From Tubulanus polymorphus (Eukaryota > Nemertea > Palaeonemertea > Tubulaniformes > Tubulanidae): DNA of 64,000 nucleotides. The notes beneath the pieces are model-generated. The model was not told the origin of the DNA and made no database searches. It saw only the letters and a program-made list of their open reading frames with translations. The position numbers were made by a program, and so were the translations under genes. Shown here piece by piece: positions 10,501 through 39,600 of this stretch (its first letter is position 1; every line of letters begins with the position of its first letter). The stretch spans positions 21,532,650 to 21,596,649 of the forward strand of contig NC_134026.1 of assembly GCF_964204645.1 (NCBI RefSeq), read 5' to 3'.

Positions 10501-13500
10501 ATAACATGTGTGTGATCTTTAGTAGTCCTTCTTCCAGTCGACGGGAACGTCACGCTAAAACGCTCGACATAGCACAAGAGGAGGTACTAACATGTTTGGG
10601 CATACATCTTTACGAACGTCTGCACAAAATCTGGCAGAAATTACGAGCGGAAGAACAAACGTGGCAAATTCTCTTTTGCCTCGGCGTTGAAGCATTAAAG
10701 AAGAAGTTTGAGGTAATAAGCATTGACCAGTCGAGGTTCCTACGACGCGTTGATTCCTTAAAAACTCCTACTGAATCGAAAATAGTATTTACTTCGAATA
10801 CATTCCCTGGGAAAATACACTATAGCCATATTGCCTTTGGCTAGGCAGATAACGCCCGAATCGACATTTGGTAGGGGCGCCGTAACATAGCGCCATCTGG
10901 TGAGACGCCATCATCTTTTTGCTTGGCGCTTGTTCTCTAGAGAACGTGTTTCGGCAGTGCTCGTAAATCGGTTAAAATTCTTCGTGTTGGATCGGACATC
11001 CGTTCTAATTGATATTAGAAACAGACATAAGAGTGATTGATCTCGGAATAGAAGTCGAACTTCGGGTGAGATCGTTTTTAATTTATGCGCATTTCAACAT
11101 TTTGCCACCGGTTTTCTACTTCCGGTTTCGCGGGAGCGCCGTGCTGTTTTCTTAGCGGCTCCTCCCGCCTTATATATTTAATAATTATCATTCAACGTAA
11201 TTGATTTCCGTCTCATCATTCACGAAAATTAATAATCTGTACTAAAAATCGTATCAATAATTAACCCTTCATTTCAGCTTATTTTAGGGTTTAACATGTC
11301 GGATCACGACGTCTCCAGTTCCCCTAGGGGACCGAGATTTAAACGTTTGGGCAACCACCTTCTAAGACCCCAGCGTCCTCATCGGGCAAGGTTGATACAC
11401 CTGAATGCCCGGATACTCGGAAACAGGGCAATGATCCGGGACGATCCGTGTCTAGGTCCAGGTCCCGATCGAGATTTAGTCGGTCCGACTCTTCGTCTCC
11501 TACTAGACGTAGGCACCAGCGCTCTAATAAAAAACGACGTCGTTCACCGTCTGACCCCAGCTCTGGGTCAAGGTCTCGTTCTAGGTCCCGTTCTAGAGTA
11601 AGTCGAACCTATTCTCCGTCACCTACCAGGCGTAGGCACAAGCGTGCCCATAAGCAACAACGTCGTCGCTCTCGTTCTAGATCACCGGCTGATAAGCCGT
11701 CTGACTCTAGTGACATCAAGAATATGCTAGCGATATTCTCGCAGATCGCTTCCCTTAAGGAACAACTAAAAGGTAAGGAACCCCCGGGCCCCAAGCCTCC
11801 ATCAGTGCCAACAGGGCTGTCCTGCAACCCAACAGATGGGTTGGTGTTGGATGATGTCAACGATTTTTCTGACGAGGAAAAATCTCGTGATCCAGAAGAT
11901 CCTGGTCTATCCAGGGACGGAGACATGCACAGATCGTGCTCTCCGTCACCATCCACAATGGAAGAGACGGGAGACATTCCATTTAAGGACTTAGTATAAG
12001 AAGTTTTCTCCCGGTACGGAGGTACCAAGGCCAAACCTAAAACAACCCAGCCTAGAGGGTCGGCCGCCAAAATCTTCAGTTCATCCGATGACACCGAAGA
12101 GTTAGTTTTAGCACCACATTCTGCATATAGAGAAGAATGGCGTGAGACTTTGGACACGACACTGTGGGGTGGTAAGCGTACAGACAATACTTGGTCTTAT
12201 CCTCCATTAGAGGCAGGCATGAAGGATTCAAAATTTTTCTCTCCGTTGTATCCTCCCATATCGGGGTACAAGACTTATTATTACGCCACACCAGGTGCTA
12301 ATGATCCGGGATTCAAACCACACTTTGAGTTAGACTCCAATGGGTCAACCACGATAGGACTACCCAAAAAACCACCGCCCTCCTACACTTTACCAAAACA
12401 AGCAATGGGAGCGTTGAACCAATTAGCTCGTAGCATTTGTCAAATCGCGTCTTTCCAAGACATTTCACTGGTTGCCATGCACGGCGAGTTAGAAAAAGTA
12501 AAGTCTCAACTAGTCCAGGATAATCCGGATCCAGAGACAATGTCCGAACACGTGGCGACCATAGAGAGAATTCTACAGTCTATGGCCAAGGCGTTGTGTC
12601 ACCAAGTACCTTTGGGTATAAGGATCCAGGCTAACCTAGCCTTAATCAATAGATATAGCTTGTTGGCCGACTCCAAACTTCCAGAACCGGTGAAAGTAGC
12701 TCTATACAGAGCACCGCTGGGCAATTCCTCAAGGGTTTTCTCTGGATGCTGCGCATCCGCCGATGCGGAGGCCACCAAGATCAGAGAATCTCAGGCTAAG
12801 GCCGGTAGGCAGTCATGGAAGACATCAAAAAAGCCTAGTTATTACGCCGGCAACTCTACCTACAGAAACTCACCGGCAAATCAGCCCGGATACAATCAAT
12901 CTCAAGTCAACAGCAAATTAAGCTACAAAAAAGCGGGTTGGACAAGCTCCAAGGGAGCTCAAAGCGACAACAATAACAATTTGAACTATGTCAGTTATTC
13001 TCAAAGTTCTTACAGTGACAATCCCCAAAGGGGTAGGGCTAGATTACGTAGGGGCTTCAATCGACCCTTTCGTGGCCGCGCCAACACAGGTTCCCGTTGA
13101 AGATGTCAGGCCAGTGGGCTCTTGCCTTCAAGACGCCTCTTCCCACTGGCTAGAAAAATTTGGCGACACTTGGGCTACAAAGATCGTTTCCAAAGGATAC
13201 CGACTGAAATTCGTTCACAAACCGCATATATCTCATCAGCCGGTGGAAATGAGGCCGAAGTGGGGGCAGGAGTCCCACGTTATGCCAGCGATCAACGAGA
13301 TGATTTTAAAAAGATCGCTGGAAGAAATCCCTCTAGGATCCCCGGGATGGTATTCAAGAATTTTCACCGTCCCAAAATCATCTGGGGGCTTAAGGACGGT
13401 AATAGATCTGTCAGCTCTAAATCGTTATATCATAGCTCCAAAATTCAAGCTAACAACACCCAAGGAGGTGATTCAGGGGCTGGAGCCAGGCCAATGGGCA

Positions 13501-16500
13501 GCATCCATAGATCTGAGGGATGCATACCTACAAGTACCAATACACAGGAACTCAAGAAAGTATTTAAGAGTTCATTGGAGGGGAAGAACATACCAATTTC
13601 GGTCTCTGCCCTTCGGCCTGAGTTCAGCCCCTTGGGTCTACACCAAACTTGTCAAAAGGGTTCAGAAACACCTTCAGTCGAAGGGAGTTCGCATTTTCTG
13701 TTACCTGGACGATTGGCTGGTTGTGGCAAATTCGAAAGCAGAGTGCAAGGAAGCCTTAGACAAGACACTGGCCTTGATCCGTCAATTAGGTTTCATAGTG
13801 AATTTAGAGAAGTCCCAGTTGACCCCCTCTCAAAGGTTCACGTACCTAGGTATGCACTTCGACCTGACGCAGGCCTTAGTCAGACCAGCACAGGCCAGAG
13901 TTCAGAAGCTGAGGGAGGCAGTTCTCGGTCTCCTGACGGGGGCGCCCAGATCGGCTCGGTCCTGGTCCCAGGTTTTGGGCCAGATGAGTTCCGTTGCACT
14001 CGTAGTTCCGCTCGGTCGTTTACACAGCCGTTCTCTTCAAAGATTCTGGAAGCAAGCTTGGAGATCGGTAGGGGAAGAGTGGGATACCTTATTGCCGGTA
14101 CCACCGGTGAACCTAATCCCCGACCTCGAGTGGTGGACTCTCGCGCAGAACTTGACAAGAGGCACCTCCCTAGCACCCTTGAAGGCCCCGATTCATCTAT
14201 TCACGGATGCCAGCCATCAGGGCTGGGGAGCACATGTAGAAGGTTTTCAGAAAGCCGGGAACTGGTCTCGAGCAGAGGCTCATCTCCACATAAATCACCT
14301 GGAACTGTTAGCGGTTCAAAAGGCCTTCAAACACTTCAAAAGGAGGTTAGGGGGCCATCATGTGTGGCTGTCGACGGACAACTCCACAGTAAAGGCTTAT
14401 TTGCTCAACCAGGGGGGGACCAGGTCCCCAACATTATCCAACTTAGCAGCTCAGATTCTGACCTGGGTCCAGGCTCAAGGGATGATTCTTTCGGTTTCCC
14501 ACCTGGCGGGCAGCCTGAATGTGGTGGCCGACGCTCTGTCTCGCCAAGACAAGCCAGTAGCCACCGAGTGGACATTGGCAGTCAGGGTAGCCAATCAAGT
14601 CCGGGCCCTGATGGGAAGTCCGAACGTGGACCTGTTTGCCACTCGCTTCAACACGAGGTGTCCGGTGTTTGTGTCCCCATTTCAAGACGACTTGGCGTGG
14701 GGGGTGGACGCTCTATCTCTGAGTTGGGACAACCTGCTGGCTTATGCCTTTCCCCCCACTCCCCTACTCAATCGAGTGTTGGAGAAGATAGAGGGGGCAG
14801 TCAACTGTCAAGTGGTCTTAGTGGCTCCCTGTTGGCCGACTCAGACATGGTTCGTCAGACTCCTGCATCTACTGGTGGACTTCCCTCGCACTCTGCCCAA
14901 TTACCCCGGGTTACTGTCCCAGGGACGGTTCAAGTTACACCCAAATCAATTCCAATTGAATCTACACGCCTGGCCATTGTCAAGCGACAGCTTTCAAACC
15001 AAGTAATTTCTTCGGGGGCAGCCAGATTTATTGTGGAATCCAAACGTCCCTCTACCGGAGCATTGTACGATTCCAAATGGGAATGTTACTCCGATTGGTG
15101 TAATAGGAGAGCGGTGGATTCTCTCCACCCCTCTGTGTCAGAGTTAATAGATTTTTTCTATTTCCTGTTCGAAGAGAAGAATAGACAGGTTATAACCATT
15201 AAAGGCTACAGATCAGCAATAGGGCATACTTTTCGTTCAGCTGGCATCCCTGTAATGACGGAGGATGTGAAAATAGCTCAATTGATATCAGGTTTTAGGG
15301 TTAAGAGACCCAAACAGGTTTCAGATATCCCGCCATGGGACTTAACAGTGGTTCTTAGAGCACTTATGATCACTCCCTTCGAGCCTATCCGCAATACTAC
15401 CCTGTCAGACTTATCTAAGAAAACGGTGTTCTTACTGTTCTTAGCAATGGCCGCGAGGCGTTCGGAGGTTCATGCTTTATCGATGCGTCCGGGTCATATT
15501 TCTTTTGGTCCACAAGATAGGTTTGTCATTTTAAGGCCTGGTCTTAGTTTCATTGCCAAGAATCAAAAGGCTTCCGTAGCAGCCAGATCTTGGAAGATCG
15601 AGGCTTTGACGCATAGGGTATCTCACGATCTTCCTGATACGTCACTCTGTCCAGTAAGAGCTTTAAAGGAGTACCTAGAGAGGACACTTCCCCACAGACA
15701 AGATAGGGAGAGGCTCTTTATTCCTCTCCGACAAGGGGATAAGAGAGATATCTAAAGGGACACAATCGCTAGATGGATTGTATCTTTAATTAAAGAAACT
15801 CTGCATTCTCAGGGGGCCCAGGCTCCGCTCGGGATACATTCTCATCAGGTGAGGGCATTAGCCACATCCTGGTCATTATTCACGGGGGCTTCCTTGGAAC
15901 AGGTTTGTCGTTCAGCCTTCTGGACGTCTCCGTCTACCTTCTCGTCATTTTATTTGAAGGACGTTTCTGGACAGTTAGGCTCACTGTCCACGTTGGGTCC
16001 AATTGTTACTGCACAACGAATAAGCGTACAAAAACCCAAAAAACATTGGGCCCAGTTAGACCTTTTTAAACCAGGTCCTGGGGATTAAAGGGTTTCTTCT
16101 GTATTCAGCTATAAGAAAGTTGATGTATATAAGTTGTGGGCATCTGTTACAGGGCCTAGGTTACCTTAAGACAGTTAGTGGTAAGGGTCCCTTTTGTTAT
16201 AGGTATTAAGTTTAGACATGAATCATGATTTCATTTATATAGCCTGGGCAAGGCTGCGTCTAGAGTTTAAGTTTTTTATCTACTGGTTTAGGTTAATATC
16301 GAGGTAATGGCAGTCAGTGCCTTACTAAGGTATCCGGGAGTCAGTTGACACCGGGTTGTTTGATTTCCTTTTTTCGACTCAAACGTAACAGGGTCATAAT
16401 AGGCATGTTATTATCTACCAGTACAGTTAGGAACTGAAAAGGAAGCAGCACGGTAGCTCCCTGATTTTTGGTTTTCCACTGGCTCACCTGGGGTTTGTTG

Positions 16501-23045: not shown

Positions 23046-26000
23046 ATGGAGAGCGAAGGCAGAGCAGATTACGTTTATGTTGCTAGATTAGCCGAACAGG
23101 CTGAGCGATATGATGGTGAGCTGCCCTGGAAATCGACAATTTGTTTACCTTCATTCACACTTGTATTGACGAAGTATTTATTTGACAGGCCTACACACAT
23201 TTCAATTCATTGACATTGCAAAAGAAGCCTACCTGTCCCTTTTATACGAACTTATCAGAGGCGGGTCTCATTGATTACCTTTTAACAACAATAGAACACA
23301 ACTATTACTTGTGTACTATCGATAATTTGACAGACTGAGACGGCAGTGTCACTGTCACTAACTGTCAATCTCCCGAGGGCGCGTGGTCTGCTGCACCCCG
23401 GTCTTAGGAAAAATACGTTCTCTCTGATAAAAGGATATATATATTTGGGAGCAACTGCAGTTAAGGTGTCCCTTATCTACCTAACCTAGTCAAATAGCAC
23501 TATTCTCTAATAACACAGCCATTGAATTGGATGGTGCCTACTAATTACCTAAACTTAAGTTAGACCGCAAAGCCTAGTTTAGCAATATCAATTCCGGATA
23601 AATGACGAGAGAAATCCCACCATGATTCAGTCTGAGATTAAATATGGGAAGTGGATATTTTGCCAATGCAGCATTATTTTAGTAAACGCTAGTTTGCCAA
23701 TGGCTATATATATATTAAGATATAGTAATAAAATATGATAATAGAATCATTATATTGGGTTTAGGATTAGGGTTTCGATAGGGTTAAGGTCTAGAGGGTC
23801 CAGAGGGTTAGGGTAAGGGTGAGGTTTAGGGTCTGTTTTTTACCCCTAGGGATAGGGTTAGGGTAAGGTGAGGCTTTATGTAGTGAAAACTTACGGATGG
23901 GTTTGAATGAGCTCGGTGGTCTAGTGGAAAGACGTTGGGCTAGCAATCTGCTGGTCCGGGTTCGAATCCCGTTCTATGCTGCTATTTTCACTAACTCTGT
24001 TCTCTACACTTTCCTTGAATTTTCTAAGTCGCGCACGTCGGTGCGCATGCGTAGCGTCAATTAGCCAATCAGAACGCGCCATTGGCAAAATAGCGTTGAC
24101 AGGAATAATGCCGCATTGGCAAAATATCACCTGCCATAGAAATACTTGAATAGAAGAGAATTTATTAAGAGCAATGTTTGGGCTAAACAGCCATCATCTG
24201 TTGTACTGATCGTACGTTGAGTACGTCTGATGATGGCTAATAGTGTTTAGCTGAAACGTTGCTCTTGATAATTTCTCCTCTGTTCTAGTATTTTTAATCT
24301 CGGACTGATCATTGTGGGATTTGTCTGGTCATCCATCATACACGGATAGTGTGTACCCTCTCGACAAATTCGGATAAAGCCTTTTTGGTGGCTTCAAATG
24401 CACAAGCCTTGTTTAATGTTTGTGGATTTCGCTATTGTGGACGACGGTAGAATGTATTCTAAAAATTTTAAGGGAATCTAAAAAAATTTAGGGGGTACTT
24501 GTCCCCCTTGAACTGCCCTTGAATGATGCAGTTACATTGTTCTACTATGGCTCTGAACTAGGTTCTACAGTTTTCGGTTGGTGTTCACTCTGTTGGAGTT
24601 AAGGTACCATAAGTTCATTTCAATGTTTTAATTTTTCAATTGAACCCAAATCAGTGGAACTCAACCGGGTCCTGGATATCAGAATCATGTCCATCCATCG
24701 TGGTAGTGGATACTTTGTTTGTTTGTTTACATATGGGTCACTTGAATTCTCGCAGAAATGGTCGACGCGATGAAAAATGTAGCCAAGCTGAACGTGGAAC
24801 TGTCGGTCGAAGAGCGAAACCTCCTGTCGGTAGCGTACAAGAACGTGATAGGTGCGAGAAGAGCATCGTGGAGAGTTATAAGCAGCCTCGAACAAAAAGA
24901 CGACGGCAAGGGCGCCGAAAAGAAAGAGCGAATTGCAACTTATAAGAGAGTGGTGAGTCTTTAATACGTGAAATGAAATGAGCTGGATATTTTTTCTTCT
25001 TTTGACGAGAATTGTGAGCGAATGTCAGCGTTTGGCAGTCCAGCGGTGATTTAATCTGATGATATCGGTCGTCGTCAGAATATTGTTCCACCTCTTGAAA
25101 AGTTGACTAACCCTCCTGACTAATAATGTTTTGAAGGGATGTTCATTTCTGTAACATCTCCGCACTCCTAATCGGTGTCGGTATTTTTTCGGGTATCCTC
25201 CCTTGTGTGTGTGCGTGTGAATGCTCCTGCCGAGAAAGGACTTTTTACACTAATTGCGTTGGTTTTCGTCTACGTTTTATTTTTTCGAATCGGTTAAAGT
25301 CATGATTCGTATTAATCGTGTGGTTATAATTCGTGGACCGAGTCACGAGGTTCCTGCCTTCACAATACCAGGTAAGACGTCGAAGTTGCTTGGCTTTAAT
25401 TAATTAAACAAGTTTTTAATGAAAATGAGAGAATGTGTTTATACATCATTCGCTTTTTGTTTTGTTTTGTTTGTTTTTCTTTTAACAATAAGAGCACTTA
25501 ACGATAATATCAATACTTGTTAACGGGAATGTTGCTGTGAAGTGGGTAAATTTTCTCGTTGGAAGGACAAATTTTAGACCTTAGCCAAAGCCACATTGCT
25601 GGTAAACTGAAGGCAGGAACGTTGATTCTAATCCTAAGATTCATGTGTAAATGATTCATCTTTTTCAGTTCAGTGCCTGTGACTTTGGCAAAGGTTCATG
25701 CCCGTGTGCGACGAATGGGCTAGGCCTGTTTGTAATATTTAAAAAAAGATATCGAAAAATTTACTCGTTGAAGTGTGTATCTTTGAATATTTTTCATCAT
25801 CATTTCAGATCGAGCAAGAACTGTTGGTAAAATGTAAGGAAGTCATATCGTTGATAGATACGTGCACACGAGATCCGTCGAACGCTGAATCTGAAGTATT
25901 CTATAATAAAATGTAAGCAGTTTATCTTGAAAATTGTATCGACGGCGTGGAACACCTCTTTTTAAACTCATCCAAACCAAAAAAATGCTGTTTGCCTGGT

Positions 26001-28016
26001 CGTCATCGTCAAAAGTCATTGCATTACTCGAGTAGCTTGCATGACTCAATTTCTTCGAAGTGTTAGTCATTTGGATATTCGTCAAGAAAATGATAGTCCC
26101 AACTAAGGCAACTTGAGCTAGATTGATAGGGGGTCGTCCATTTATTACGTACTCATCGTAGGGGTGGAGGGGGTCTTACTAAATTGCATGCATGTGTACG
26201 GAAGCGATGAAGGGCCTCGAGTTGTCGCGTTCCAACTCGACAAGTTGTCATATTTATGTCGACATATCGCGTCAAGTCGACATCATATCGTGACGTTTTG
26301 ACGATATATTTCGTTTTCACTGCCATTTTCCTCGCGACAAGACTTGAAACTCAGTCGTCATTTCACTGGCATCCTCATCTTACATTTAGACATGTCTTCA
26401 AATGACGGCTTGTCCCGTGAAAAATGGGCGAATTTGTCGTGAAAACGTCACAATATGTCGACATAAGTATGGCGACTTGTCGAGTTGGAATGCGACAACT
26501 CGAGGGGCTTTATCGCTTCCGTACATGTGCCTACAGGGGGGAGGGGGGCTAATTCTGATGCGTTTGGTATGCACAATTAACAAATCGTGAGCATGCCCTG
26601 TATACGTCGTTCAATGTCTACTACCCCTATTGTACACCGTGGGCTCATCCTTGTTCAAGAACTCGCGACTTTTTAGTACAAACGTAATGAAAGTAGGCCT
26701 AGGTCTAATCAATAAAAACAATAGTCTTTCCTTGAGTCTTCCCTTTTGTGTTAGACACTTTGGGGAGAGGGGTAACTTTGAAGGTCAGTATGTACGCAAA
26801 GGGGAGGGGGTAAATGATTTGCGTACAAGGGGGGAGGGGGTCTGATTTTACCGAAAATAATGCGTACGTAATAAATGGACGACCTCTAGTGAAAATATTA
26901 ATGAATGATTATTTTTAACAAGCCTTTACTATAGAACTTGAATGTTCGTTTAGATTTGGTTGCTGTGTCATTTTCCAGTATTAAAAAAAAAACGTCATAG
27001 GGTTCATTGATTTATTATGTATGCATTACGGGGAGGAGTGAGTGGAATTGCGTACTGTAATGCTTCATTTTGAAAAATTCAGATTTTATGCGTACGTAAT
27101 AAATGAATGATCCCATACATAATTCATGTTTTCATCCTTCTACTGCTCATTGTAACGATATTCCTTATTATGCAGGAAAGGTGATTACTATCGTTATATG
27201 GCGGAATTCACAACCGGAGAAGAACGAAAAGAGGCAATTCAAGAGAGTTCCGATGCATATAAAGCGGCGAAGGCTATTGCCGACAAACATCTGAAAGCTA
27301 CGAATCCGATTTGTCTTGGCCTGGCGCTGAATTTCTCTGTGTTTTACTACGAAATTCTCAACTCGAACGAAAGCGCGTGTCAATTGGCAAAGGATGCATT
27401 TGAAAAGGCAGTCGCTGAGTTGGATTCGTTGCCCGAAGATAGCTATAAAGATTCGACCTTAATCATGCAGTTGCTGCGAGATAACCTGACCCTATGGACC
27501 AGCACAGGTGAGTTATGTTCATAGTTGTTAAAGTGGAACCTCGTGGAAGGACCAATTGGGGGCATCTAGTTTTAGGTAAAATCTTGATCAAACATGTTTT
27601 ATGTAAACCATAAGTGATCAGCATTGGGTCAAAATCCAGATTTCATTGATCAGTGTGTTCTTCTCGTGGAATCTAATCTTATTTCAACGAAAATGGTTAA
27701 TAGTTAATTCTCAAATTTGTTGTACATCTGTGATGGAATTCCACACTGCTGCGCTTGTTGGTTCAGTTGCTATTTAGTGGTTTCATCTCAATTGGTGAAC
27801 TCATAGTCTTAAAAATCAGCTATATTTTACATCAAATTTTGATCATTATAGATAAGAGGGTTGTCATTTAATTTATCTTAATTTTGAAAATACATAACTG
27901 GTGTTTCAAAAAATGTAAGTCGTAGATGTTTTTAAATTCCTAACGGGAGATTCATTAAATTTTCAGAAGCTGAAAACCAGTCTGCAGATGATGATGTTGA
28001 TCAGGACGAAGCCTGA
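23046..28016 (+). CDS. YWHAE: 14-3-3 epsilon-class protein, gene 1
   Basis: 14-3-3 proteins are dimeric adaptors that bind phosphoserine/threonine motifs. Five exons join to 250 residues: 23046-23115, 24756-24952, 25809-25912, 27176-27507 and 27967-28016. The start [23 protein letters not shown] matches the first helix. Exon 2 holds the first family signature ([20 protein letters not shown]) with the Lys and Arg of the phosphate pocket, and exon 4 opens with KGDYYRY (Arg-Tyr of the pocket). The second signature, [19 protein letters not shown], is complete, and the acidic tail ends [16 protein letters not shown] and [19 protein letters not shown] favour the epsilon class over zeta. Intron 2 contains conserved complementary blocks; intron 3 holds nested non-autonomous transposons. 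The gene is paired in tandem with gene 2. Confidence 0.95.
23755..23870 (+). repeat. Interstitial degenerate telomere-like tract
   Basis: Many GGGTTA/TTAGGG-type units occur (for example GATTAGGGTTTCG, GAGGGTTAGGGTAAGGG and GATAGGGTTAGGG), mixed with variants. The animal telomere unit is TTAGGG, so this may come from telomeric DNA captured in the element around it. Confidence 0.6.
23909..23983 (+). repeat. tRNA-like module (tRNA-derived SINE or tRNA pseudogene)
   Basis: An A box, TGGTCTAGTGG (23917-23927), and a B box, GGGTTCGAATCCC (23958-23970), stand at tRNA spacing. A 7-base loop CTAGCAA would hold an AGC (Ala-type) anticodon. The anticodon stem is poor, and the acceptor arms (GAGCTCG and TCTATGC) do not pair, so it is not a working tRNA gene. 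Confidence 0.55.
24150..24295. repeat. Inverted pair of CTGATGA...GAAAC (hammerhead-like) repeats
   Basis: The right arm reads CTGATGA (24227-24233), a 6-bp stem GGCTAA/TTAGCT, then GAAAC (24253-24257) and GTTGCTCTTGATAATTTC. The left arm carries the same sequence on the minus strand with changes (CAGATGA, CAAAC, ATTGCTCTTAATAAATTC). CTGATGA-stem-GAAA is the conserved core of hammerhead ribozymes, which occur in the terminal repeats of Penelope-like elements. No complete ribozyme fold was found. Confidence 0.5.
25350..25371 (+). promoter_or_regulatory. Conserved intronic block S1 of 14-3-3 gene 1 (ratchet-like AG/GT)
   Basis: This pyrimidine-rich block, beginning GTTCCTGCCTTCA and ending TACCAG, is followed at once by GTAAG. 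It is complementary at 19 of 22 positions to 25599-25620. The counterpart in gene 2 is 32454-32475. Confidence 0.65.
25578..25620 (+). promoter_or_regulatory. Conserved intronic blocks S2a and S2b of 14-3-3 gene 1
   Basis: S2a (25578-25595, ACCTTAGCCAAAGCCACA) is complementary at 16 of 18 positions to S3 downstream. S2b (25599-25620, ending GAAGGCAGGAAC) pairs with S1 upstream. Only three bases separate S2a from S2b. Confidence 0.65.
25678..25695 (+). promoter_or_regulatory. Conserved intronic block S3 of 14-3-3 gene 1
   Basis: TGTGACTTTGGCAAAGGT is the partner of S2a. It follows a decoy acceptor (TTTTTCAG ending at 25668) and lies 114 bases before exon 3. Confidence 0.65.
26131..26884. mobile_element. 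GTCGTCCATTTATTACG family element, copy A, interrupted by a second element
   Basis: The ends are inverted: GGGTCGTCCATTTATTACGT at 26131 and its complement near 26863-26884 (GTACGTAATAAATGGACGAC). The interior has G-rich runs typical of the family. A separate palindromic element fills 26195-26525. It lies in intron 3 of 14-3-3 gene 1. Confidence 0.65.
26195..26525. mobile_element. Nested element with about 73-bp inverted ends
   Basis: 26195-26267 and 26453-26525 are imperfect inverted repeats that share TGTACGGAAGCGAT, CCTCGAGTTGTCGC, TTCCAACTCGACAAG and ATGTCGACATAT. It is 331 bp long with no coding capacity, and lies inside copy A of the GTCGTCC family. Confidence 0.7.
27008..27112. mobile_element. 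GTCGTCC family element, copy B (short, diverged)
   Basis: The left end, GGTTCATTGATTTATTATG, and the right end, GCGTACGTAATAAATGAATG, are inverted and match the family ends with changes. The interior is G-rich. It lies 120 bases from copy A in the same intron. Confidence 0.5.
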
Positions 28017-28775
28017 ATGAAATGATGTCGGCATCAGTTCAGAAAATATTTATAATGGGGAGGGTGGTCATCGGATGAGTAGTATAAAGTGTTTCCGAGG
28101 TTGGAGTTTCATGGCCCTATTGAGGGCTTGTAGCAACGTGTTACTTGTCAAAAAAAAAAAGTTTATTTTTGTTTGTCAGTCGTACAGATTGAATGACCCA
28201 GCAATGAATCTGCAGCAACGGCCGATCCCAAATACATTCGATGCTGAAGGTTTAAACAGTCAGTGGTGTCAGCGCTTGGTGGTAGGCCCTGGATATACAT
28301 GTATATCGTTTGATGAAAAAAAAAATAGAAAAACTTCAGCCTTACTTTAAACAACAGTTTTGAATTGTGTGGATATACTGAACCATCGTATATGTATCCA
28401 TAGTGGACCTGGAACGGTTCATGAATATTCTGTAGAATACATTTATAAACTAGTTATATCCATCAAACCTGATCGGAAGAAGTAACATTTAAAATTCCAA
28501 GTTCTACAGATGGCGACAGGCGATAGGAAAAAATGTCTGTTGCCTATTTCTATGTAAGCAGGGTTAGGACACGGAAGTAGAACGCTCTTGCCACTCACTG
28601 AAGTTTTGTACTAAACATTCTATTTTTTTGTAACGCGTCAACTTGATTTATTCAGTATTTATATATTCTTGGATATACATGCCTTAATTATCATACATAA
28701 TAGTAGTACTTGATTTTAATACATGTAGTCTAATTTATTTGCTGTGTGTGAACTATAATTGTGATATTAATCGGA

Positions 28776-28781
28776 AATAAA
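28776..28781 (+). terminator. Poly(A) signal of 14-3-3 gene 1
   Basis: An AATAAA lies 760 bases after the stop, in an AT-rich 3' UTR. Confidence 0.45.
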
Positions 28782-28786
28782 AATTT

Positions 28787-30580
28787 CACTAAAAATTCTC
28801 GTGTTTGTGTTAGCATTGGACTTTCATTTCTATTGTTAAACCTGATTAATGTGGATCGGATCCAATTGACTTCCAGCTCTGGTTCACCTATTCATAAATG
28901 TATGGAGATTAGGGAAATCTAATAGATTTCTCGCATAAACTGGGCTTAATTCTGTTAGTTCCAGATGATCTGCATTAAGCAGGGTGTACTGTGCAAGGGT
29001 TAGCGTACTTGCCTAGAAAATTCAGCGAATCTGAGAAATCTAGAAAAAATTAGGGAAGTTTGACAATTTTCGCAAAAATCTTCGGGAATTTGGGTATGCT
29101 ATGGCCATGTGCTTCTTGATCAATACCAGCTAGTTTGTGAAAAAATTATTAAATTGTAACATTGCATACTCCAATGAATTTCTCCATTCGCCTTCCGATT
29201 CGCTTTGGAATTTTGTGCTACGACATGGATAATACACAAGACTTGAAGTTCGGAAAGTTGCCACCCAGATGTTGCAAATTTCTCATTGCATGATTTTATT
29301 TTGATCGATTTGTTTGTGTTACTCTTGTGGCGCTTGGCTTATGATTGGCCAGTAGCTAAAATTTATGAGTTTCTGTAACCATGAATTCCAATTGTTACCA
29401 ATCGGTATGCGTTTTAAGTAGAAACTAGCCCACAAATTATCGACCAAATCAGAGATAAGATAATTAGAAATAGTGCATTAGTCTTAGACCGATTATTAGA
29501 AGACCTTTTGTTCTTGCAGTGTATACATATTTTAGTAGTGGACGAAATTTAATGATCGTTGTTATTTGTGACGAGAATTCTGGTTCATTTCTTATTTTCT
29601 TTGTGCTTGTTAATGATAAACGGAAGAAACGGTTTATTCGAAATTCTAATCTAGCTTAATAATACTATTACACTTGTTGCCAAATGAATCGATATCTGAG
29701 TCAGCACGGTGAACACGGGTGTGGGTGGTTTCTGGATGCGCGACTTCGAGGTGCGCGCACAGTCATAGACAGTACTGGGCAGTGCTGTGACGTACGACAC
29801 GACGAGCGTCCGCCACGCGCCTGCTGGTCTATTATTGGACCGTGCTGTATATAAATTTCTTAATATCGCGCCCGCACCGGTTTTGACTGGAACTGGTATA
29901 GAATCGAACTTGCTCGATACGCTCGAGCGCTGACCGTTGTTGTCTCTGCAAGTTACTTCGCGTTTCGGTATGTAGCAATGCGGTACTGATTCATTCAACA
30001 CACCGAAACGCGGAAGTGACACTGCCCATTGTAGCCATGGTAACGACGTGCGTCACAACCGCCTCGCGCACTTATTCCCCGCCGTGTACAACCGCGTGAG
30101 GAAAAAGATCGTGGGTGGTCGTGCGCGTAATCTCCATATTGAATAAGCGCCCATCTTTTTGAGTGCAAAATATCCCTCAACAACTGACCCAAAAATCATA
30201 AGATAATTTACGTTCGGAAGACCATTTAAGAAATAATAAGATCGTGTCGCCATTTTAAGGAGAGGAGTGCGATATTTTCTTTGAAATGAAGATTAAGAAA
30301 GACCCGAAAATCTCATTATGTTTATTTACTGATTAAGACTCTGCTTTTATAAATTTTTAGCGAATAAATCTGTCAAAATAGACGTGTTTCTGATTGTTTT
30401 CGTTTGTCTTTGATTTTATTACGATGCGTTGAAAACGCGAATTGTTGCGATCAAACTGGTAGGATTTGCGCAGCGTGCATTGATAATCATTATTCACCTA
30501 GCGTAAAAGTAGGCTAACTCCGCCGCGCGCGCATTGATATAACTAAGCTGTCTCTACGAGTACTACTTTCACTGGCGGGC
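28787..30580. other. Spacer and upstream region of 14-3-3 gene 2
   Basis: No gene is seen. The region turns GC- and CpG-rich at about 29690-30130. Open frames there (for example on the minus strand at 29651-30022) fit base composition rather than coding. Further upstream the DNA is AT-rich and featureless. Confidence 0.4.
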
Positions 30581-30592
30581 GCGGCCATCTTG
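30581..30592 (-). promoter_or_regulatory. YY1-like site in the 5' region of 14-3-3 gene 2
   Basis: This is the identical GCGGCCATCTTG 12-mer seen before gene 1, here 81 bases before the ATG. The downstream leader (AAAAAATC, CTGCG, AAATCGTC, CCATCCGC) is also shared by the two genes. Confidence 0.5.
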
Positions 30593-30661
30593 TAAATTTC
30601 ACAGGAGATCATTCCGTCAAAAAATCTGCGTTAAATCGTCGCATATTCACAACCATCCGCC

Positions 30662-33600
30662 ATGGACACTATAAACAGAGAAGATCATGTGTACACAGCT
30701 AAATTAGCTGAACAAGCCGAACGTTATGACGGTAAGTCCTTTACATTATATCTAGTTTTAGACGATACGTATTTTCCGCTGAGAAATCTTCCTCGGCTTG
30801 ATGATCGACGCCCTGTCTCAATAAATGCACTGGTTTATGGGCTCATTTTTATCGCGGCTTAGCTATAGATAGAAATTTCGTTTCAAATCTTTGATGTTGT
30901 TAGCGTTAGTTTTTTGTCAATCGTAAATAACTAGCAAATCAATCGCGTACGATTTTGATGTATCGTCATTGTATTTGTACGACCTTTTTATTTGCCCTGC
31001 CCCCTTTTTTTATTGCCTGAGAAAAGGGTCCTTATGATTTTGCTTGTCTTGTTGCAAGAGGGCGAGGTGAATGCGAAAATATCATCAATGCATTGACAAT
31101 GAAGTAAACTTGAGCCCCAGCGAGCATTTGTAATTGTTCGTGAAGACCAAATATATTGATATTGATCACATGATAGTGGCCTGAATTTCTGATGAAATGC
31201 TTAATGTACCAGACCGTTCTACTCCTGTCTTATCGAAGTCATTTATATGAAGAATGGTGCATGCATAGGAGGAGGAGGCTATGTCTTGGATGAAACGGAA
31301 ATGCTATTTATCTTACAGAAATGGTGGATGCCATGAAAAAAGTAGCCAATCTAAATGTAGAATTGTCGATAGAAGAACGAAATTTGTTGTCGGTAGCGTA
31401 TAAGAATGTGATAGGAGCTCGAAGATCATCTTGGCGAATAGTTTGCAGCTTAGAATTGAAAGAAGATTCTAAGTCAGCTGAAAAGAGAGCTAAGATCGCA
31501 GAGTACAAGGCAGTGGTGAGTTTGGAATAAATTTTTGATGGGTGTTTTCTTGTGATGTAGAAGTCGAGAATTCGGCGAGATATTTCCACCATTTTTCGGG
31601 GGTTTTCTTGCCTCGTAATTGAGGTCATCAATTAAGTTGGTCAATAGAAGGCTCTGATAGTAGGCGTCAGTGCATTTCATGTCATACGTAATCTGCTGCC
31701 TTTGATCATAATGAATCATGTAGTGGCTGGTTTGTTCAAGATTTAGATGCTGGATGGTATAAACTGAATGTTTTTTATGCAGGACTTCAGCCGTCAAGGT
31801 TCATTTCATATCTTAGAGCATACAATGCGTTAATGAATCCTTAATGATGATGATGCTGCCCTGTTTAGGGCCAATCCTTATATGCATACTGTTAATATTC
31901 CATATTAAACTTTCGACAATGTTCCTTATTTGAATTTTGATTAGTTGCATGTTAGCTTGATAATTAGGTGGAATTGAATGATATTTTTGACGATTTTCCT
32001 TGTCGCCACTGTAATCGATTGACTTCAGTGATTATCAAAGTAGCTTTTTTATTCTACTTTAAGGTATTTCACTATTGGATGTATTAATGTTAGGCATTGT
32101 TATACTTTCCGAAGTAATCTTTGACATGGATCTCGAAGTAATCTATGACTTCCGAGATTGTGATTTGGTATTAGGCTGGGTAACAGTGACACTATCCTAT
32201 TCCTGTTTATCACATATATCTAACCATACAACATTGCAATAGTATGAACCATGATTTCTGTAACATTTCTGCGCTGTCTTTTTCAAACGTGTTAACTGAA
32301 ATACGGGTTGATTGTAATGGAAAGGTTGCTTACTGTCAATTGCGTTCACGTAAGACTAGGATTTCCATATGTATAATATGGCTTGAATTCGAAGGTGAAA
32401 TTATATTTTTTGCGATATGTCGATGGCTTTAATAGTTGAGGAGAAGTAACAGGATTCCTGCCTTCAGACTACCAGGTAAGCTAAAACCTGATTTTGCTTG
32501 GCTATTGTCTTTAACCAATTTCGTATTTTGTATCTAACACCTCGAGAATCTTCTCTTGTATCATCTCATCATCAGTTAAACCGATGGAACCCTCTTTTTG
32601 AAATGATCCATTTATTTGAATAATAACCTTGGCTAATATTGATTAAAATTTGAGCCTGCATGGTGTGCTTTTATCTCGGGAGTACCTCAGTGAGACTACT
32701 CTTAGTAGTCAAAAGTGCTTCTAATGTGCCTTATCCTGGGATACTTAATTATATATAACCTTAGCCAAAGCCATAGCTGAGCTAACCTGAAGGCAGGAAT
32801 ACAGAGTTATGACAAGCGTCGTTATTGTTTGGCAAATTATTTGTCTTTTTCAGTAAAGGGTATCTGTGGCTTTGGCTTAAAGGTTTAGATAGATATTTCT
32901 GAATAATGAATGCGTCTGACTGGCCGCCTTAATCACTTAGTGTGACTTCCTTGAAGAATAATCTTCTTTTTTTTTTTTGTTAATTCAGGTGGAGAAAGAA
33001 TTGGAAGAGAAGTGTAATGATATCATCAGTGTGATAGATGACCACCTTGAGCCGGCTGCGAATAATGCAGAAGCGAAAGTATTCTACAATAAAATGTAAG
33101 TTTAACAATTTGTGGCGTTGTCACTGACTTCAAGGTTCATATTGATTTGATTGTTTGATAACAGCTAATCTCATTGTGTATTATAGGAAAGGTGACTACT
33201 ATCGTTATTTGGCCGAGTTCCGAAATGGTAATGGCCGCAAGACAGCAGCTGAAAATAGCCTGGAAGCGTACAAAGCGGCGTCAAAAATTGCCGAAAGTGA
33301 TTTACAGCCGACAAATCCGATTCGTCTTGGTCTGGCGCTAAATTTCTCGGTGTTTTATTTCGAAATCCTCAATTCATCCGAACGAGCGTGTCGGTTAGCG
33401 AAGTCTGCATTTGACGAGGCGATCGCCGAACTCGACACATTGAACGAGGATTCCTACAAAGATTCTACCTTAATCATGCAACTACTGAGGGATAATTTAA
33501 CTCTGTGGACAGGTAAGGAAAATTTTTAGCTCACTTCGGACTAGCAGCCCAGTAAGCTATCGCGTTCACTTGTTCTCTTTCTTACATGGAAACTTTGATG

Positions 33601-36600
33601 ACGCTTCAATGGATTGTCTTGGAGGATCAGAAGTTTGGTTATTATATATCTGCCCTAGATACTTCTGCCCAAAAACTGGCCTGATTAGGATGAAGAAGAT
33701 CCTAAGCTTAATGGCATGTTAGGACTGGTACCTGTGCATATTATGTAACCTCAATTAATAACTCAATTCTAGCTCACTAGTTTTATGTGTGGTGAGTTGC
33801 AAGCTCATCGAGACACTATTAATTTGGTCACTAGGGTATCAGATTGTCAAGCTTTTCACCAAGTGGTCATCTTGTCCTTGAGTTCAGTTGATCTTAGGAA
33901 TTAACTTCAGCCCGGATCCACCCTTTCAGACGCACCATTGAGTGATGTCTTGATGATCAATGAATGGTGATGTCCAATATCTGGTAATGATAGTTTTTGA
34001 TTGAAAATGTCTGGTGTTTTTTGATTCTGTAAATCCTGACAGATCAAAATTGTGGATGATTTCGGGCTGATCTCCTTTAGTTCTTGCATCATCAATGAGA
34101 ACCTCCCAAGTTCAAGGCTAGGTTATTCTTGAGAGTACTTGTTTTTATTTTCAGATGGACAGGGTCAAGCTGAGGAGGCTGAAGAGGAACGCACTTAAAA
34201 ATTGTCGAATCTTTCCGAGTTAATTGAACTGGAAAATGTTATATTTGCTTGGATATATTATAAATAATTATAATTATTGTCATATTTTGTATGATTTCTC
34301 GTCGCGCAAGGAGTTACATCTGTACATTGATGGGGATCATATTTTTACCGGGATGATTGATAGTTTAAATCAGATGATTAGCAGCAGTTCAGTTACTAGT
34401 TGGCAAATCTTATTTTGGCGTCTACGGTGCTAAGTGTAATTGATCAGTTCAAAAGGGGGCGTGGGTTCAGGCTGTATTTTTTCTTCTTCCAAGTTCAGGT
34501 ATCCACAGAAATTGCTTGTTGTATTTCGTAGTCGCATCCTTCTGTTGTGTTTGTGATTCGTATTATAAGAGGTTTTGGTCTAGACGTCATGTTTACTTTT
34601 TGAAAGGCAGCATTTTGGCTCTAACGCAAACAGCAGATGTACCTCCTGTTTACTGTGTTCCTTACAATTCAGTCCCATTCCAAAATAACAACATTCAACT
34701 TGCTGTAGCATCCCCCAAATAGTTAAGGATCTTTCCAAAGTCCATTGTCTGGAGCAATCTGCACTTAATGAAAGTTCTCAAATCTTGAAATACCAAGCTT
34801 TGCTCATCTCAATTAAGTTATTTTTCAATTTGTTTTTTTATGATATGTATAATTCTTGCGGATCTTGGTTTTAAGTTCCCTTTAAACAATTGCATATCAG
34901 TAGAGGTGCACTCGCAATCACAGAACTCGCTTAAAACACATAATTTCCTTAGTGCAGGAAATTCTTAGCACCTTGCAGATTTTTAAGATAAACTGATTTC
35001 TTTTGTCGATGAGGTCATTTCTGGAGATTTTATTTGTTTTCTAAGTTAGATATGAAACCATTTTCAGAGTACGGAAGATTCCTCCTCGCTTGGTGCGGGT
35101 CAATTATGTTAACCGAGTGAAACGTATTCGGTAAAACCTTCTTCAGATTCTCTGATTTAACTACTTGTCTTGGTGATGAATCTGGCACGGCGGAGTCTGC
35201 TATGTGCATGCACTATGTTTCTATCGTTTATTCGTTTGTGTAAGATGATACAAAATTACTTGGATATTCAGTAAGGAGGCTTCTTTCGTGGATAGACATT
35301 AGATAAAGAGAATTGTGATAAGCCACAGTCTAAGATTGCGGAGAATCTTTTGGGTTTACGGGTCTTGGTATACGCGACATGCACCTTGGGATGGTCAATT
35401 ATTTGTACGTTGATTGGTGTCATGTTGGACGGGCACGCTGATGGCCCTAAGTGTCTTGAATCTGGTTTATTATAATACCGCCTGTAACTTCCAAGTACAT
35501 GGTCACAATGAGCTTGAAAAACTGCTGCGGTACTTGGAGGGTATCAATCTGTAGCTTCCCTTGTGACTTAATACCATTGATCATTGTCTGATCTTTGATG
35601 ATCAATTTTTGCGAACGTTAATGGCTTCTCCCAAGACGTCATACAGCAGCACACTTTTCAGAAGGTCGTTGTGTAGACACTTCACAATGCAATGGTAAAT
35701 GTCTTTTACATAAATCCCAGTTGCAGATTGATCTGCATATGATGCACAATGCTTAGAATTTCTTTTTAAGTTAGTCCGATACTAGTCCTTAAATTAAGTT
35801 CTGTGAGGTTGTCGATAAGGGTTCATTTTATCATCGGTCTAATTTTTTACGTGTCATCGTTTTCTGCTCATCTGTTCAATATCTTCTGACAATCACTCAA
35901 TATGTTTCACGAAAGCCTTGTGTAATTAGAGAGGAAAAATGTATACCCAACTGCTCCACTGATAATTGTTTGGATCGATGACAAATAGTAGTTAAGTTTT
36001 CTGTATGTGTTTTCACTTTGAATAGTAATCTAGTTGTCGCATTGTATTTTCATGTACATACAAACATATCTGTGAAGAAGCTATTGATATTCTAATGTCT
36101 CTGATAGGTTACACAGTCGGGTTTAGCGAGCGAAAAAAAATAAATGTCTCCGATATATTTCCCAGTTACTGCGGTCGTTTGTCGAATCGTCGAGTTCACT
36201 GTTCCCTATTATTAGTAGTATGATTTTTGATTATTGCTCTAATCAGTATCTGTCTTTGTGTGCATGTGTGAAGCTTTTGATACAATAATAAAAAGAACAC
36301 AGGTGAAATTAAAAAAAACAAAAAATGGCTTGATGAAGTTATTCAAACACATTTTCGGTCCGTGTCCCTCGTCGTTGTTTAGAGATAGTTTTCGTTCTGA
36401 TTTTCGGGATTGTATCAGCCAGTTGTCAGGTACGTGGAGATAGATGGCTGCTACTTTCGATCTCGACTCGAAAATTAAGGTAAGAATCATTCGTAGTAGA
36501 CGTCATTTGGTAGTTGTGATGTCGGAGTAGTGTAAGGAGCAGTCGCTTGTGTAAGGATGCCTCAAATAATTAAATGCGAGCTTGTCAATTCCGCTCGGAC

Positions 36601-39600
36601 TTGTAGTCGCGACCTCAAGGAAATGCTGCGCACGCGATTTTTTTCCCCATCTTCAGACGATTAGTATATTTTGCGCTATGAATTTGTCAAGTTTTACCCT
36701 GAAAAACAAGCAAATAAAGAGTGATGGATTATATTGTCGGCTTATCATGTCTGTAGTGTTGTTTTATGGAGTTGAGGGTTTTTTCATTTTAAGATATTTG
36801 CGGTGTTTCGAATACCGGAGGCGTGTAACTGTCCGGTGTATTTTGTACATTATTATTCTGGATTGAATCCTGGCTTTTTTGTCGAGGTGATTGAAGTTGA
36901 AACCAAAAGAAAAAAATGCTAATATCAGCGTTACTGCTTCTTACACATACGTGCTTTGTGTTCGATAATTGGACATTCTCAAATACACGCGCAGTTCCCC
37001 AAATTACGTCATGAATTCATTCCAAAATAATGATGTACTGAAAAAAAAAAACGTATTGAATTTCAACAATCGCAGAAATGTTTACAGAGATCGATGACTA
37101 TTTATAGGGATGAAATTATTTTCTATTTCGGCCAGAACTGTTGGATATTTGAGATTGTTTCTGTTTTGTTGTTCTTGTTTGTTTTTTCTCGGCTATTCGG
37201 TCTACCTAATCTATTGCAGTTAGTTATCATTGTTCCATCGGTTTTCTTTTCCAAAAGTATCTGGCTGGTATGTTAATGGAAAATGTTTAATTCCAAAAAA
37301 ATTTGCGTGTCCGTATATGGTTCATTATCTAGGCGCAACTAACAAAATTCTGATCAAATTTCTTCTTAGATTAGTCACTCCCTTGCCAATTGCCGTCTGA
37401 TATTTATGTTGATACATTGAATTGTGCGTAACCCGTATATTGTGTCGTCTTGTGTTTGTAATGTTATGTATTTTTTGTAATTTTCAGATCGAAGGTGAGC
37501 TCGAACAAAGATGTAAAGATATACTGGATCTTCTCGATGATTATTTGATTCCAGCTTCGATAGATCCTGAGGCTAAAGTTTTCTATTTTAAAATGTAATT
37601 ATCATTATGAATTTGAAGATATTCGTATCTGCTGATTATCGATTTTGTTATGGTAATTAATGTCTCGTGTGACTGACAGTTCATTTCATTTTTTCGTTTA
37701 AAAGGAAGGGCGATTACTACAGATATTTAGCAGAAATCGCGGCCAAAGATAAATGCGAGGAAATAGCCAAAGAAAGTAACAATGCTTACGAGAAGGCAAC
37801 CGCGCTTGCCGAAGAACTAGCTTCGACCCACCCCATCCGACTTGGATTGGCATTAAATTATTCTGTCTTCTTCTATGAGATTTTGGCAAAGCCCGAGGAC
37901 GCGTGTAAAATGGCGAAGAAAGCCTTCGACAACGCGATCGCTGAATTAGAGTCTCTCAAGGAGGACAGCTACAAAGATTCCACACTGATCATGCAGTTGC
38001 TGCGAGATAATCTTACTTTATGGACGTCGGATATGGATGGTACGTATCTCTCTCCCAGTATCCGAGTTAGGGACTATACGTTCATTATGTACGCATAAGA
38101 ATTTCGACTTTTTTACCCCCCGCCCCTTGTATGTAGTGAAGAAAAAATGTTATCACAAAGCTAGGAAATACCTGTATTGATATTAGATTGGTAGCATTGT
38201 CTCGTGATTAGTTTTTGGCGTATTGGCTTGAGCCTTTCGTTGAATGGCTGTATATATATATAAATCATTAGTTTGTGTTCTCAGTCCCTCCCATGCACAG
38301 GCTAGTATGCACAAATGAATGGTCCTCTAATATCCAAGTTCTTGGAAGAGTGTGGATTGGAATATTTAGGGATCTGATTGTTGAATAAAATAATCTAATG
38401 AAGTGATTTTCGTCATGAAATGGTTTTCGTCAGATTTGATAATCCGTTCAGTATGTTTTAAAATATTTTCAGGCGATGAAGCGAAAGTTGAAGACGTCGA
38501 TGATGATAACTAAAACTAAGTGGTGTCATTCCTTTGACTCATCTAGTAATCCAATGTTTTTCTTGTTACGTTCACCCATTGGCGAGGATACCTACTATTA
38601 ATCCTGTGGATGGGAGAACTCCAAGAGAATTACTGGTTCAGATCTGGATATAAACAGAAAGGACTGATCACCATTTCATCATGTTACTTCGGAATAACTA
38701 TTGAGAAGACTTAACTATTTTGACTGGAATTCACTGTGTCCGCTTGTGATAATTTAACTATTAATTATTGATATCATATATTTTTTTTTGTTTTGACTTA
38801 ATGACGGAGGTAGTCATATAATGCTGATAAAGCAAGCGGGACTTGTGCCACCAAGGAAGATAATGTGGCGATATATTTATTCCCCCCAGAGAGACTTTGA
38901 TTAAAAAAAAAAATAGTGTTTACCTAAGTTAACCAGAGGAAATGGTAGTAATTATTAGAAATTTCATATTGCTTTTTAACTTAAAAATCATTAAAACATC
39001 TTTCACAAAATTAGATCAGTTTGGTTTTGTTTTGAACGTCATCGAGTTTGTAGTTTTAAAAAAGATGAAGTTGTTGTCATGGCATGCAACACTAACTAAG
39101 AGAGACTGATAATGGACTAAATGAAGGAATATTTGGAATCTGTTCACTCGTCGTCTATGCAGATTTATGTTTTAGAAGCGACAATTATATCCATGCGGCT
39201 ATAGTGAACTGGTGCTTTGGTGTCGATTACGGCGGCTAAAATTCAATTGAGTCTCGTACCTAATACGAAAATAAAAAATCATCTAGGCATGAGAGCTGTT
39301 AGTGTTGCCTGTATTCAAACATCTTAGGTTCCACATTAAAAAGCTTTGATGGTTCATAAATAACTATTCAATCAGTTTTCGTTGATTATTCAAGGTGTGC
39401 TGTTGTATTGTTTTATTTAGCGAATCTTAAAAAAAAACTGTATTGTTATGATGATAACTCTCTCAATTCTGATGTTGCTCGTTTTTGCGTTTATCTCTTC
39501 GAATGATGATGATGATTATCAAACCCCCTGTGTTATACTTGTCGCTCTTCGTCGCCAAAGAGAGCTATATTCAACTACTACTTGCGTACTCAGTTGGTTG

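Follow-up and report, generated by a model that had tools for sequence, protein, structure and literature searches.

Conserved crossing helices on splice-site motifs in intron 2 of two tandem 14-3-3 genes: a possible splicing-control element

Locus and gene structure

The stretch of Tubulanus polymorphus DNA analyzed here, hereafter the window, is 64,000 nucleotides long (C2:21532650-21596649, in a 267.8-Mb assembly of 77 contigs) and contains a tandem cluster of 14-3-3 genes. Two of these, gene 1 and gene 2, each comprise exons 1 to 4 together with a C-terminal tail, and the second intron of both carries conserved blocks, named S1, S2a, S2b and S3, whose complementarity predicts two helices that cross. 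Downstream of genes 1 and 2 lie units 3 and 4, with exon 3 at 37488 and 41425, respectively. From the look of the encoded proteins we take the genes of the cluster to be epsilon-like, whereas a further 14-3-3 gene on contig C8 (L005) is, on the same grounds, presumably zeta-like. Within the window, tblastn locates exon 1 at two places only, 23046 and 30662. The intron in question measures 0.86 kb in gene 1 and 1.47 kb in gene 2 and is bounded by the following exons.

24755 to 24952, plus strand: gene 1 exon 2 (14-3-3 epsilon-like)
25809 to 25912, plus strand: gene 1 exon 3
31318 to 31515, plus strand: gene 2 exon 2
32989 to 33095, plus strand: gene 2 exon 3

Two crossing helices kept since before the gene duplication

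The pairing was first described from the letters of the window by an earlier model reading, the sequence-only reading, and its coordinates proved correct. In gene 1, S1 (25350-25371) is complementary to S2b (25599-25620) at 19 of 22 positions, all Watson–Crick and ungapped, and S2a (25578-25595) pairs with S3 (25678-25695) at 16 of 18. Both helices are kept in gene 2, where the blocks named by that reading are likewise in place. There, all 14 positions of 32454-32467 in S1 pair with 32787-32800, and the predicted duplex adds six more pairs between TACCAG and 32777-32784 across two single-base bulges, for a total of 20 paired bases among the 22 of S1. The S2a:S3 helix of gene 2 comprises 20 pairs, one of them G-U, with a 2-base bulge in S3. 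When the two helices are taken together, the S2 strands run as follows.

25577 to 25620, plus strand: gene 1 strand S2 (S2a 25578-25595 and S2b 25599-25620, with 3 unpaired bases between them)
32757 to 32800, plus strand: gene 2 strand S2 (32757-32776 pairing with S3 and 32777-32800 with S1, with a gap of 0)

The core helices S1:S2b and S2a:S3 have no base in common, and they abut on S2, 3 bases apart in gene 1 and 0 in gene 2. At the gene 2 junction, position 32777 is paired to 32475, the base that immediately precedes a donor motif, and 32776 to 32864, directly before the S3 block as originally named. The S2 strand is the complement of S1 joined to S3, which is the order of a spliced product. 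Because both helices abut on this strand, S2 could bring a donor and an acceptor together. Strands of one gene can also pair with those of the other, at energies that range from -33.7 to -49.4 kcal/mol over the four combinations.

Some of the differences between the genes preserve pairing. The terminal pair of S1:S2b is G-C in gene 1 and A-T in gene 2, as had been pointed out; with two sequences, one such compensating change does not amount to evidence of covariation. Other changes that keep a pair include C-G in gene 1 to T-G in gene 2 within S2a:S3, and some mismatches of gene 1 are pairs in gene 2. The spacing from S3 to exon 3 also agrees with the earlier description, with 113 and 104 bases lying between them (114 and 105 by coordinate subtraction).

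A single stem of this kind is not extreme, because shuffled introns reach it and other stems in the window score alike. The longest perfect stem is 13 in gene 1 intron 2, which 2 of 200 shuffled introns reach, and 14 in gene 2 (1 of 200), and an ungapped scan of the 64 kb returned 15 other stems that score at least 13 within 450 bases, as high as gene 1 S1:S2b does in that scan, the top ones being long fold-backs. Duplex energies were computed with the conserved blocks as given, namely C1 (25340-25410), C2 (25572-25625) and C3 (25655-25700) and their gene 2 equivalents. The C1:C2 duplex reaches -47.1 kcal/mol in gene 1 and -39.9 in gene 2, values that 0 and 1 of 2000 dinucleotide shuffles attain, and the C2:C3 duplex reaches -35.2 and -39.2 kcal/mol (2 and 3 of 2000), counts that serve as a guide rather than as exact probabilities because the block limits were drawn after the alignment had been seen. 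The control duplex C1:C3 is ordinary, with 201 and 445 of 500 shuffles as good.

The age of the complementarity follows from the divergence of the two genes. By the Nei–Gojobori method (NG86), gene 1 and gene 2 differ by a synonymous divergence (dS) of 2.3 and a nonsynonymous divergence (dN) of 0.21 over 231 codons; by part, dS is 4.2 for exons 1-2 (89 codons) and 2.0 for exons 3-4 (142 codons). Neutral sites are thus near saturation between the genes, which argues that the blocks have been held by selection, and the proposal that the complementarity predates the gene duplication is upheld. Identity between the genes is 19/22 in S1, 17/18 in S2a, 13/14 in the S2b core and 11/11 in the donor TACCAGGTAAG. 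The rest of the intron had been called unalignable by eye, and blastn bears this out: apart from reverse-strand matches, which are the pairing itself, and weaker ones, the comparison of the two introns yields few short blocks. These are the S1 block (E 5e-7), the S2-S3 block (E 9e-12) and a third block at 25145-25166 and 32254-32275 (19/22, E 0.027), for which no homologous pairing partner was found in both genes.

When introns and upstream regions of the four units were compared at E values up to 0.01, only intron 2, among the homologous introns of genes 1 and 2, gave a match. The other matches in this comparison are a T-rich stretch, one weak A+T-rich match and a repeated TGCGTACGTAATAAATG-type element, copies of which lie at 27070-27114 (gene 1 intron 3), 40957-41001 (upstream of unit 4) and, on the other strand, 38070-38113 (unit 3 intron 4). 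Introns 1, 3 and 4 of gene 1 gave no plus-strand match to those of gene 2 at E up to 0.05, the downstream end of gene 1 intron 4 being a guess in the intron comparisons.

The sequence-only reading had raised the doubt that the blocks might be copies of a dispersed repeat. In the readable part of the assembly, the longer S1 and S2 patterns are confined to these two introns: a scan with the C1 pattern (at most 3 mismatches) returned 3 matches, namely the two loci and gene 1 S2 on the other strand, and the exact S2 pattern returned 2, again the two loci. A dispersed repeat is thereby rejected as far as the readable sequence goes, despite the 20 genome occurrences of the 13-mer CTGAAGGCAGGAA. The reversed control of this 13-mer occurs once, and the excess is unexplained; two of its matches lie 5.4 kb apart on opposite strands of contig C1. 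In the zeta-like gene, neither the S1 block nor an S2-S3 model gives a convincing match, and S3 alone, with the gene 2 block as the query, finds there only two weak reverse-strand matches (66%, E 0.065). Units 3 and 4 hold no convincing block copies, the best S3 match having an E value of 0.35. Searches of prokaryote and viral collections gave one chance match, to a Bacillus record, and none in viral contigs. Among the 7 matches to Rfam 15 at E up to 5 in 23500-36000, none lies over the blocks, and a known Rfam family is therefore rejected as the identity of the element. The feature is real and old, and its topology is unusual.

Splice signals and a proposed masking of decoy sites

Both helices are placed exactly on donor and acceptor motifs that are invariant between the genes. 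The relevant features of the two introns are these.

25341 to 25371, plus strand: gene 1 block C1, with a branch-point-like AGTCAC, a pyrimidine tract and CCAG; holds S1; conserved with 32445-32475
25372 to 25376, plus strand: gene 1 donor D1 (GTAAG), directly 3' of S1; TACCAGGTAAG identical in both genes
25386 to 25395, plus strand: gene 1 'post' box TTGCTTGGCT, a candidate alternative partner of S2a
25660 to 25668, plus strand: gene 1 acceptor A3, CTTTTTCAG
25669 to 25693, plus strand: gene 1 putative microexon of 25 nt, followed by a weak donor (GTTCAT); S3 is 25678-25695
32445 to 32475, plus strand: gene 2 block C1 (S1 is 32454-32475), conserved with gene 1
32476 to 32480, plus strand: gene 2 donor D1 (GTAAG)
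32494 to 32503, plus strand: gene 2 'post' box
32845 to 32853, plus strand: gene 2 acceptor A3, CTTTTTCAG
32854 to 32882, plus strand: gene 2 putative microexon of 29 nt, which opens with TAA in the exon 2 frame; S3 is 32865-32884

S1 ends exactly at the donor TACCAG/GTAAG, and CAGGTAAG occurs four times on the plus strand of the 64 kb: at the two elements, at the gene 2 exon 4 donor and at one other place. In both genes the pyrimidine tract TTCCTGCCTTC precedes CCAG/GTAAG, as it would in an acceptor, and S1 thus presents the back-to-back AG/GT acceptor/donor with a pyrimidine tract by which recursive splice sites are recognized in sequence. A TCAC/TAAC motif may be a branch point: in each gene its A is 26 nt upstream of the AG end. 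At the other cluster, the acceptor CTTTTTCAG is identical in the two genes, and S3 begins 9 nt (gene 1) and 11 nt (gene 2) after it. Conservation extends from this acceptor to AAAGGTT, and the AAAG/GT end of S3 could close a microexon of 25 nt in gene 1 or 29 nt in gene 2. Local folding also pairs CTGAAGG, within S2b, with the CTTTTTCAG acceptor, which lengthens S2a:S3. S2 therefore faces both splice-site clusters, since it pairs at the S1 donor/acceptor as well as at S3 and A3. The 'post' box 3' of D1 is conserved at 10 of 10 positions, and its pairing with S2a is weak (147 of 3000 shuffles equal it in gene 1 and 71 in gene 2).

The constitutive sites of the intron show no such relationship. 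Over segments of equal size, 71 nt each, the pairing energies of C2 are -16.1 and -19.0 kcal/mol at the exon 2 donor and -19.1 and -19.2 kcal/mol at the exon 3 acceptor. Of 1000 shuffles, 324 to 831 do as well, so neither site stands out, whereas the pairings with C1 and C3 lie at -35 to -47 kcal/mol. We therefore reject the idea that S2 is directed at constitutive splice sites. The sequence-only reading had proposed an RNA switch that controls splicing into exon 3, and this is partly supported: a splicing role is the likeliest one, but control of the exon 3 acceptor itself is unsupported, as the pairing of C2 with that site is shuffle-like.

A role of some kind in splicing, summed over all of the splicing readings considered here, is in our judgment likely, because the crossing pairing is conserved, occurs at two loci only and is placed on splice signals. 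Among the specific readings, we tentatively favor a conserved pre-mRNA element that would control splicing by masking decoy, unproductive splice sites within intron 2. The S2 strand, about 44 nt long, is complementary to two alternative splice-site clusters of its own intron: a composite acceptor/donor at S1, made up of the branch-point-like motif, the pyrimidine tract and CCAG/GTAAG, and, at S3, an acceptor that a microexon of 25 or 29 nt may follow. Whether it paired with either cluster singly or, as a pseudoknot, with both, S2 would hide the decoys and let exon 2 join exon 3 properly. Were the pairing lost or shifted, a decoy would be used, a premature stop would be read and the output of the gene would be lowered. 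Decoy use, masking in cells and the regulatory sense of the element are all presumed from sequence.

The exact placement of both helices on the invariant motifs counts in favor of masking, and the translated consequences of decoy use are consistent with it. Also in its favor are the better-than-shuffled pairing of C2 with C1 and C3 but not with the constitutive sites, the pairing of strands across the two genes, the base changes that leave the helices paired, and the confinement of matching intron DNA to intron 2. Extension of exon 2 to D1 leads to a stop within 5 codons in both genes. In gene 2, both the joining of exon 2 to A3 and the inclusion of the microexon lead to an immediate stop; in gene 1, the stop comes after 53 codons in the first case and after 17 in the second. 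Unproductive splicing fits these data because each of the three events yields a premature stop in both genes.

Several points weigh against this reading. D1 and A3 are only putative as decoy sites, the stop on A3 use in gene 1 comes late, and the donor of the microexon is weak (GTTCAT in gene 1, GTTTAG in gene 2). A cassette exon that ends at D1 is unsupported, as no conserved upstream acceptor was found in the two introns; the cassettes that can be guessed differ, 25300-25371 having an in-frame stop and 32436-32475 being open (the exon 3 junction lies outside this translation). Genes 1 and 2 represent one ancestral event rather than two independent ones. Folding adds further reservations. The nested minimum-free-energy structure pairs C1 with C2 in both genes, with 34 and 25 expected pairs versus 0.06 and 2.7 for C2:C3; nested folding thus favors the S1 side, and a balance between two nested states is unsupported. 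For a pseudoknot to beat the nested folds, its penalty would have to stay under 9.5 kcal/mol in gene 1 and 8.4 in gene 2, values close to the penalties usually applied. The modeled energies do not settle the choice between a pseudoknot and competing states. If both helices formed, the donor and the acceptor would be brought close, and either nested state would leave one cluster covered.

Should the element control splicing, it would serve as a clear model of how a central signaling gene can be spliced unproductively or combinatorially. RNA structures that control splicing are known mostly one by one, and this one has outlived near-saturated synonymous sites between duplicates.

Other readings and related systems

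The same geometry could instead promote splicing, a reading that we regard as the foremost of the alternatives, albeit an unlikely one. In it, S2 would act as a splint in a pseudoknot, pairing simultaneously with the 22 nt that lead up to D1 and with bases roughly 10 to 27 after A3, so that D1 and A3 are held side by side and an inner intron of 297 nt (gene 1) or 378 nt (gene 2) is spliced. The reverse complement of S2, which reads S1 then S3 in spliced order, is what such a splint would look like, as are helices that abut and share no base, and the summed energies permit both helices together. Against this, the pseudoknot has no clear energy preference, and removal of the inner intron would by itself change nothing in exons 2 and 3 unless the outer sites shift too.

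The units downstream suggest a wider role for the intron. Their features are as follows.

37488 to 38039, plus strand: unit 3, exons 3 and 4 (37488-37594 and 37705-38039), exons 1-2 not found
41425 to 42268, plus strand: unit 4, exons 3 and 4 (41425-41531 and 41930-42268), exons 1-2 not found

Upstream of units 3 and 4, the best tblastn match to exons 1-2 has an E value of 0.81, and a 14-3-3 family search of the readable assembly found exon 2 only in genes 1 and 2 and in the zeta-like gene; this search lacks the sensitivity to detect exon 1, which is 23 codons long and goes undetected in genes 1 and 2 as well. Exons 3-4 of both units are open, with dN of 0.21 to 0.33 relative to other units (dS is not computable), and for these reasons the units are probably not pseudogenes. 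Their 5' part could be the shared exons of gene 1 or gene 2, or a first exon of their own. For unit 3 there is a possible first coding exon at 36444-36479 (ATG..AAG/GTAAG), which would give a 14-3-3 protein without the N-terminal helices.

Because units 3 and 4 stand without exons 1-2, the intron that holds the element may be a point of acceptor choice. Exons 1-2 of gene 1 or gene 2 would then join either their own exon 3 or that of units 3 and 4, with the intron 2 element deciding, an arrangement that can be likened to the crossing pairings of bidirectional mutually exclusive splicing. We consider this improbable. The downstream units, open, constrained and without exons 1-2 found, and the position of the element in the very introns that would choose both speak for it. 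However, the acceptor regions of units 3 and 4 pair with gene 1 C2 and with gene 2 C1, C2 and C3 much as those of units 1 and 2 do, no convincing block copies lie near units 3 and 4, and exon sharing is hypothetical, the more so as unit 3 may possess its own first exon. Similarly doubtful is a guide-strand version of the idea, in which S2 would serve as a continuous coaxial splint, located after each of the two heads (exons 1-2 of genes 1 and 2) in a cluster that has four tails (exon 3 onward, units 1 to 4), and could choose which tail is joined, or none. The splint would align the splice sites and dissolve once the inner intron leaves, and the result would be an RNA switch choosing among whole 14-3-3 protein halves.

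With a probability that we place equally low, the element may have a role apart from splicing, whether as a non-coding RNA hosted by the intron, as an RNA site bound by protein or as a DNA enhancer, in which case the splice-like motifs would be incidental. Conservation does not name a function, and an additional conserved block lies upstream (25145-25166), but no Rfam match covers the blocks at E up to 5 and exact splice motifs stand at their edges.

S1 might also be a recursive splice site, or ratchet point, gated by S2. The branch-point-like TCAC/TAAC 26 nt before the end of CCAG/GTAAG, with the pyrimidine tract between, agrees with this in both genes, and the back-to-back acceptor/donor at S1 is like that of ratchet points. 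The latter lie predominantly in long introns (PMC8605326), whereas the introns here span only 0.86 and 1.47 kb and a complementary strand lies over the site. Gene 2, moreover, has an earlier CAG (32465-32467) inside the tract, and we hold this reading to be a long shot. Chance, or a relic of an old inverted duplication without a present role, is very improbable: comparable stems do arise in 1 or 2 of 200 shuffled introns and 15 like-scoring stems exist in the window, but the blocks were kept near synonymous saturation while the remaining intron diverged.

The element has partial precedents. As judged by titles and abstract openings, no report of a structured intron 2 in 14-3-3 epsilon was found in the literature. 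The closest published cases are the competing pairings IE1, IE2 and IEa at the exon 5 cluster of Drosophila 14-3-3zeta (Yang et al. 2011, cited in PMC4174434; PMC6071210) and the bidirectional model with its crossing pairs (PMC4174434, PMC6071210). The Drosophila system likewise concerns a 14-3-3 gene with conserved intronic boxes that compete for one strand in a splicing context. It differs in being a zeta paralogue with mutually exclusive coding exons; here the gene is epsilon-like, the intron is the second, no alternative coding exon was found, and the splice motifs lie in or at the helices. For srp exon 4, bidirectional pairing control is described in which simultaneous crossing pairings are impeded by a pseudoknot (PMC6071210, PMC6027157). 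Two crossing pairings are common to both cases, but the srp elements flank two alternative exons, whereas no conserved exon lies between the arms here.

With respect to docking/selector arrangements, S2 is complementary to both C1 and C3 and the nested folds are mutually exclusive, yet the core helices share no bases. An array of homologous alternative exons with one selector each was not found, there being no conserved coding exon between the blocks and no convincing copies at units 3 and 4. In group I introns, the internal guide sequence (P1/P10) lets one strand of the intron pair with the sequences that precede the 5' site and follow the 3' site. The resemblance is an analogy only, as the motifs here are the spliceosomal GT/AG and Rfam gave no group I match. 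Pairing that occludes an alternative 5' splice site is described for eukaryotic TPP riboswitch introns (PMC7404189); an intronic RNA pairing over a splice site is the common element, and the difference is that no aptamer was found here with Rfam.

The window contains other features besides the cluster. Gene 1 intron 3 carries a fold-back repeat with 73-nt arms (26195-26525), and further fold-backs lie at 61929-62156, 24140-24293 and 23666-24116. A tRNA-like stretch at 23915-23974, which scores 23.5 bits against an Rfam gathering score of 29, is perhaps the head of a short interspersed element (SINE). Overlapping long reading frames at 12150-15755 resemble a reverse transcriptase and a recombinase, and by eye we take them to be DIRS-like.

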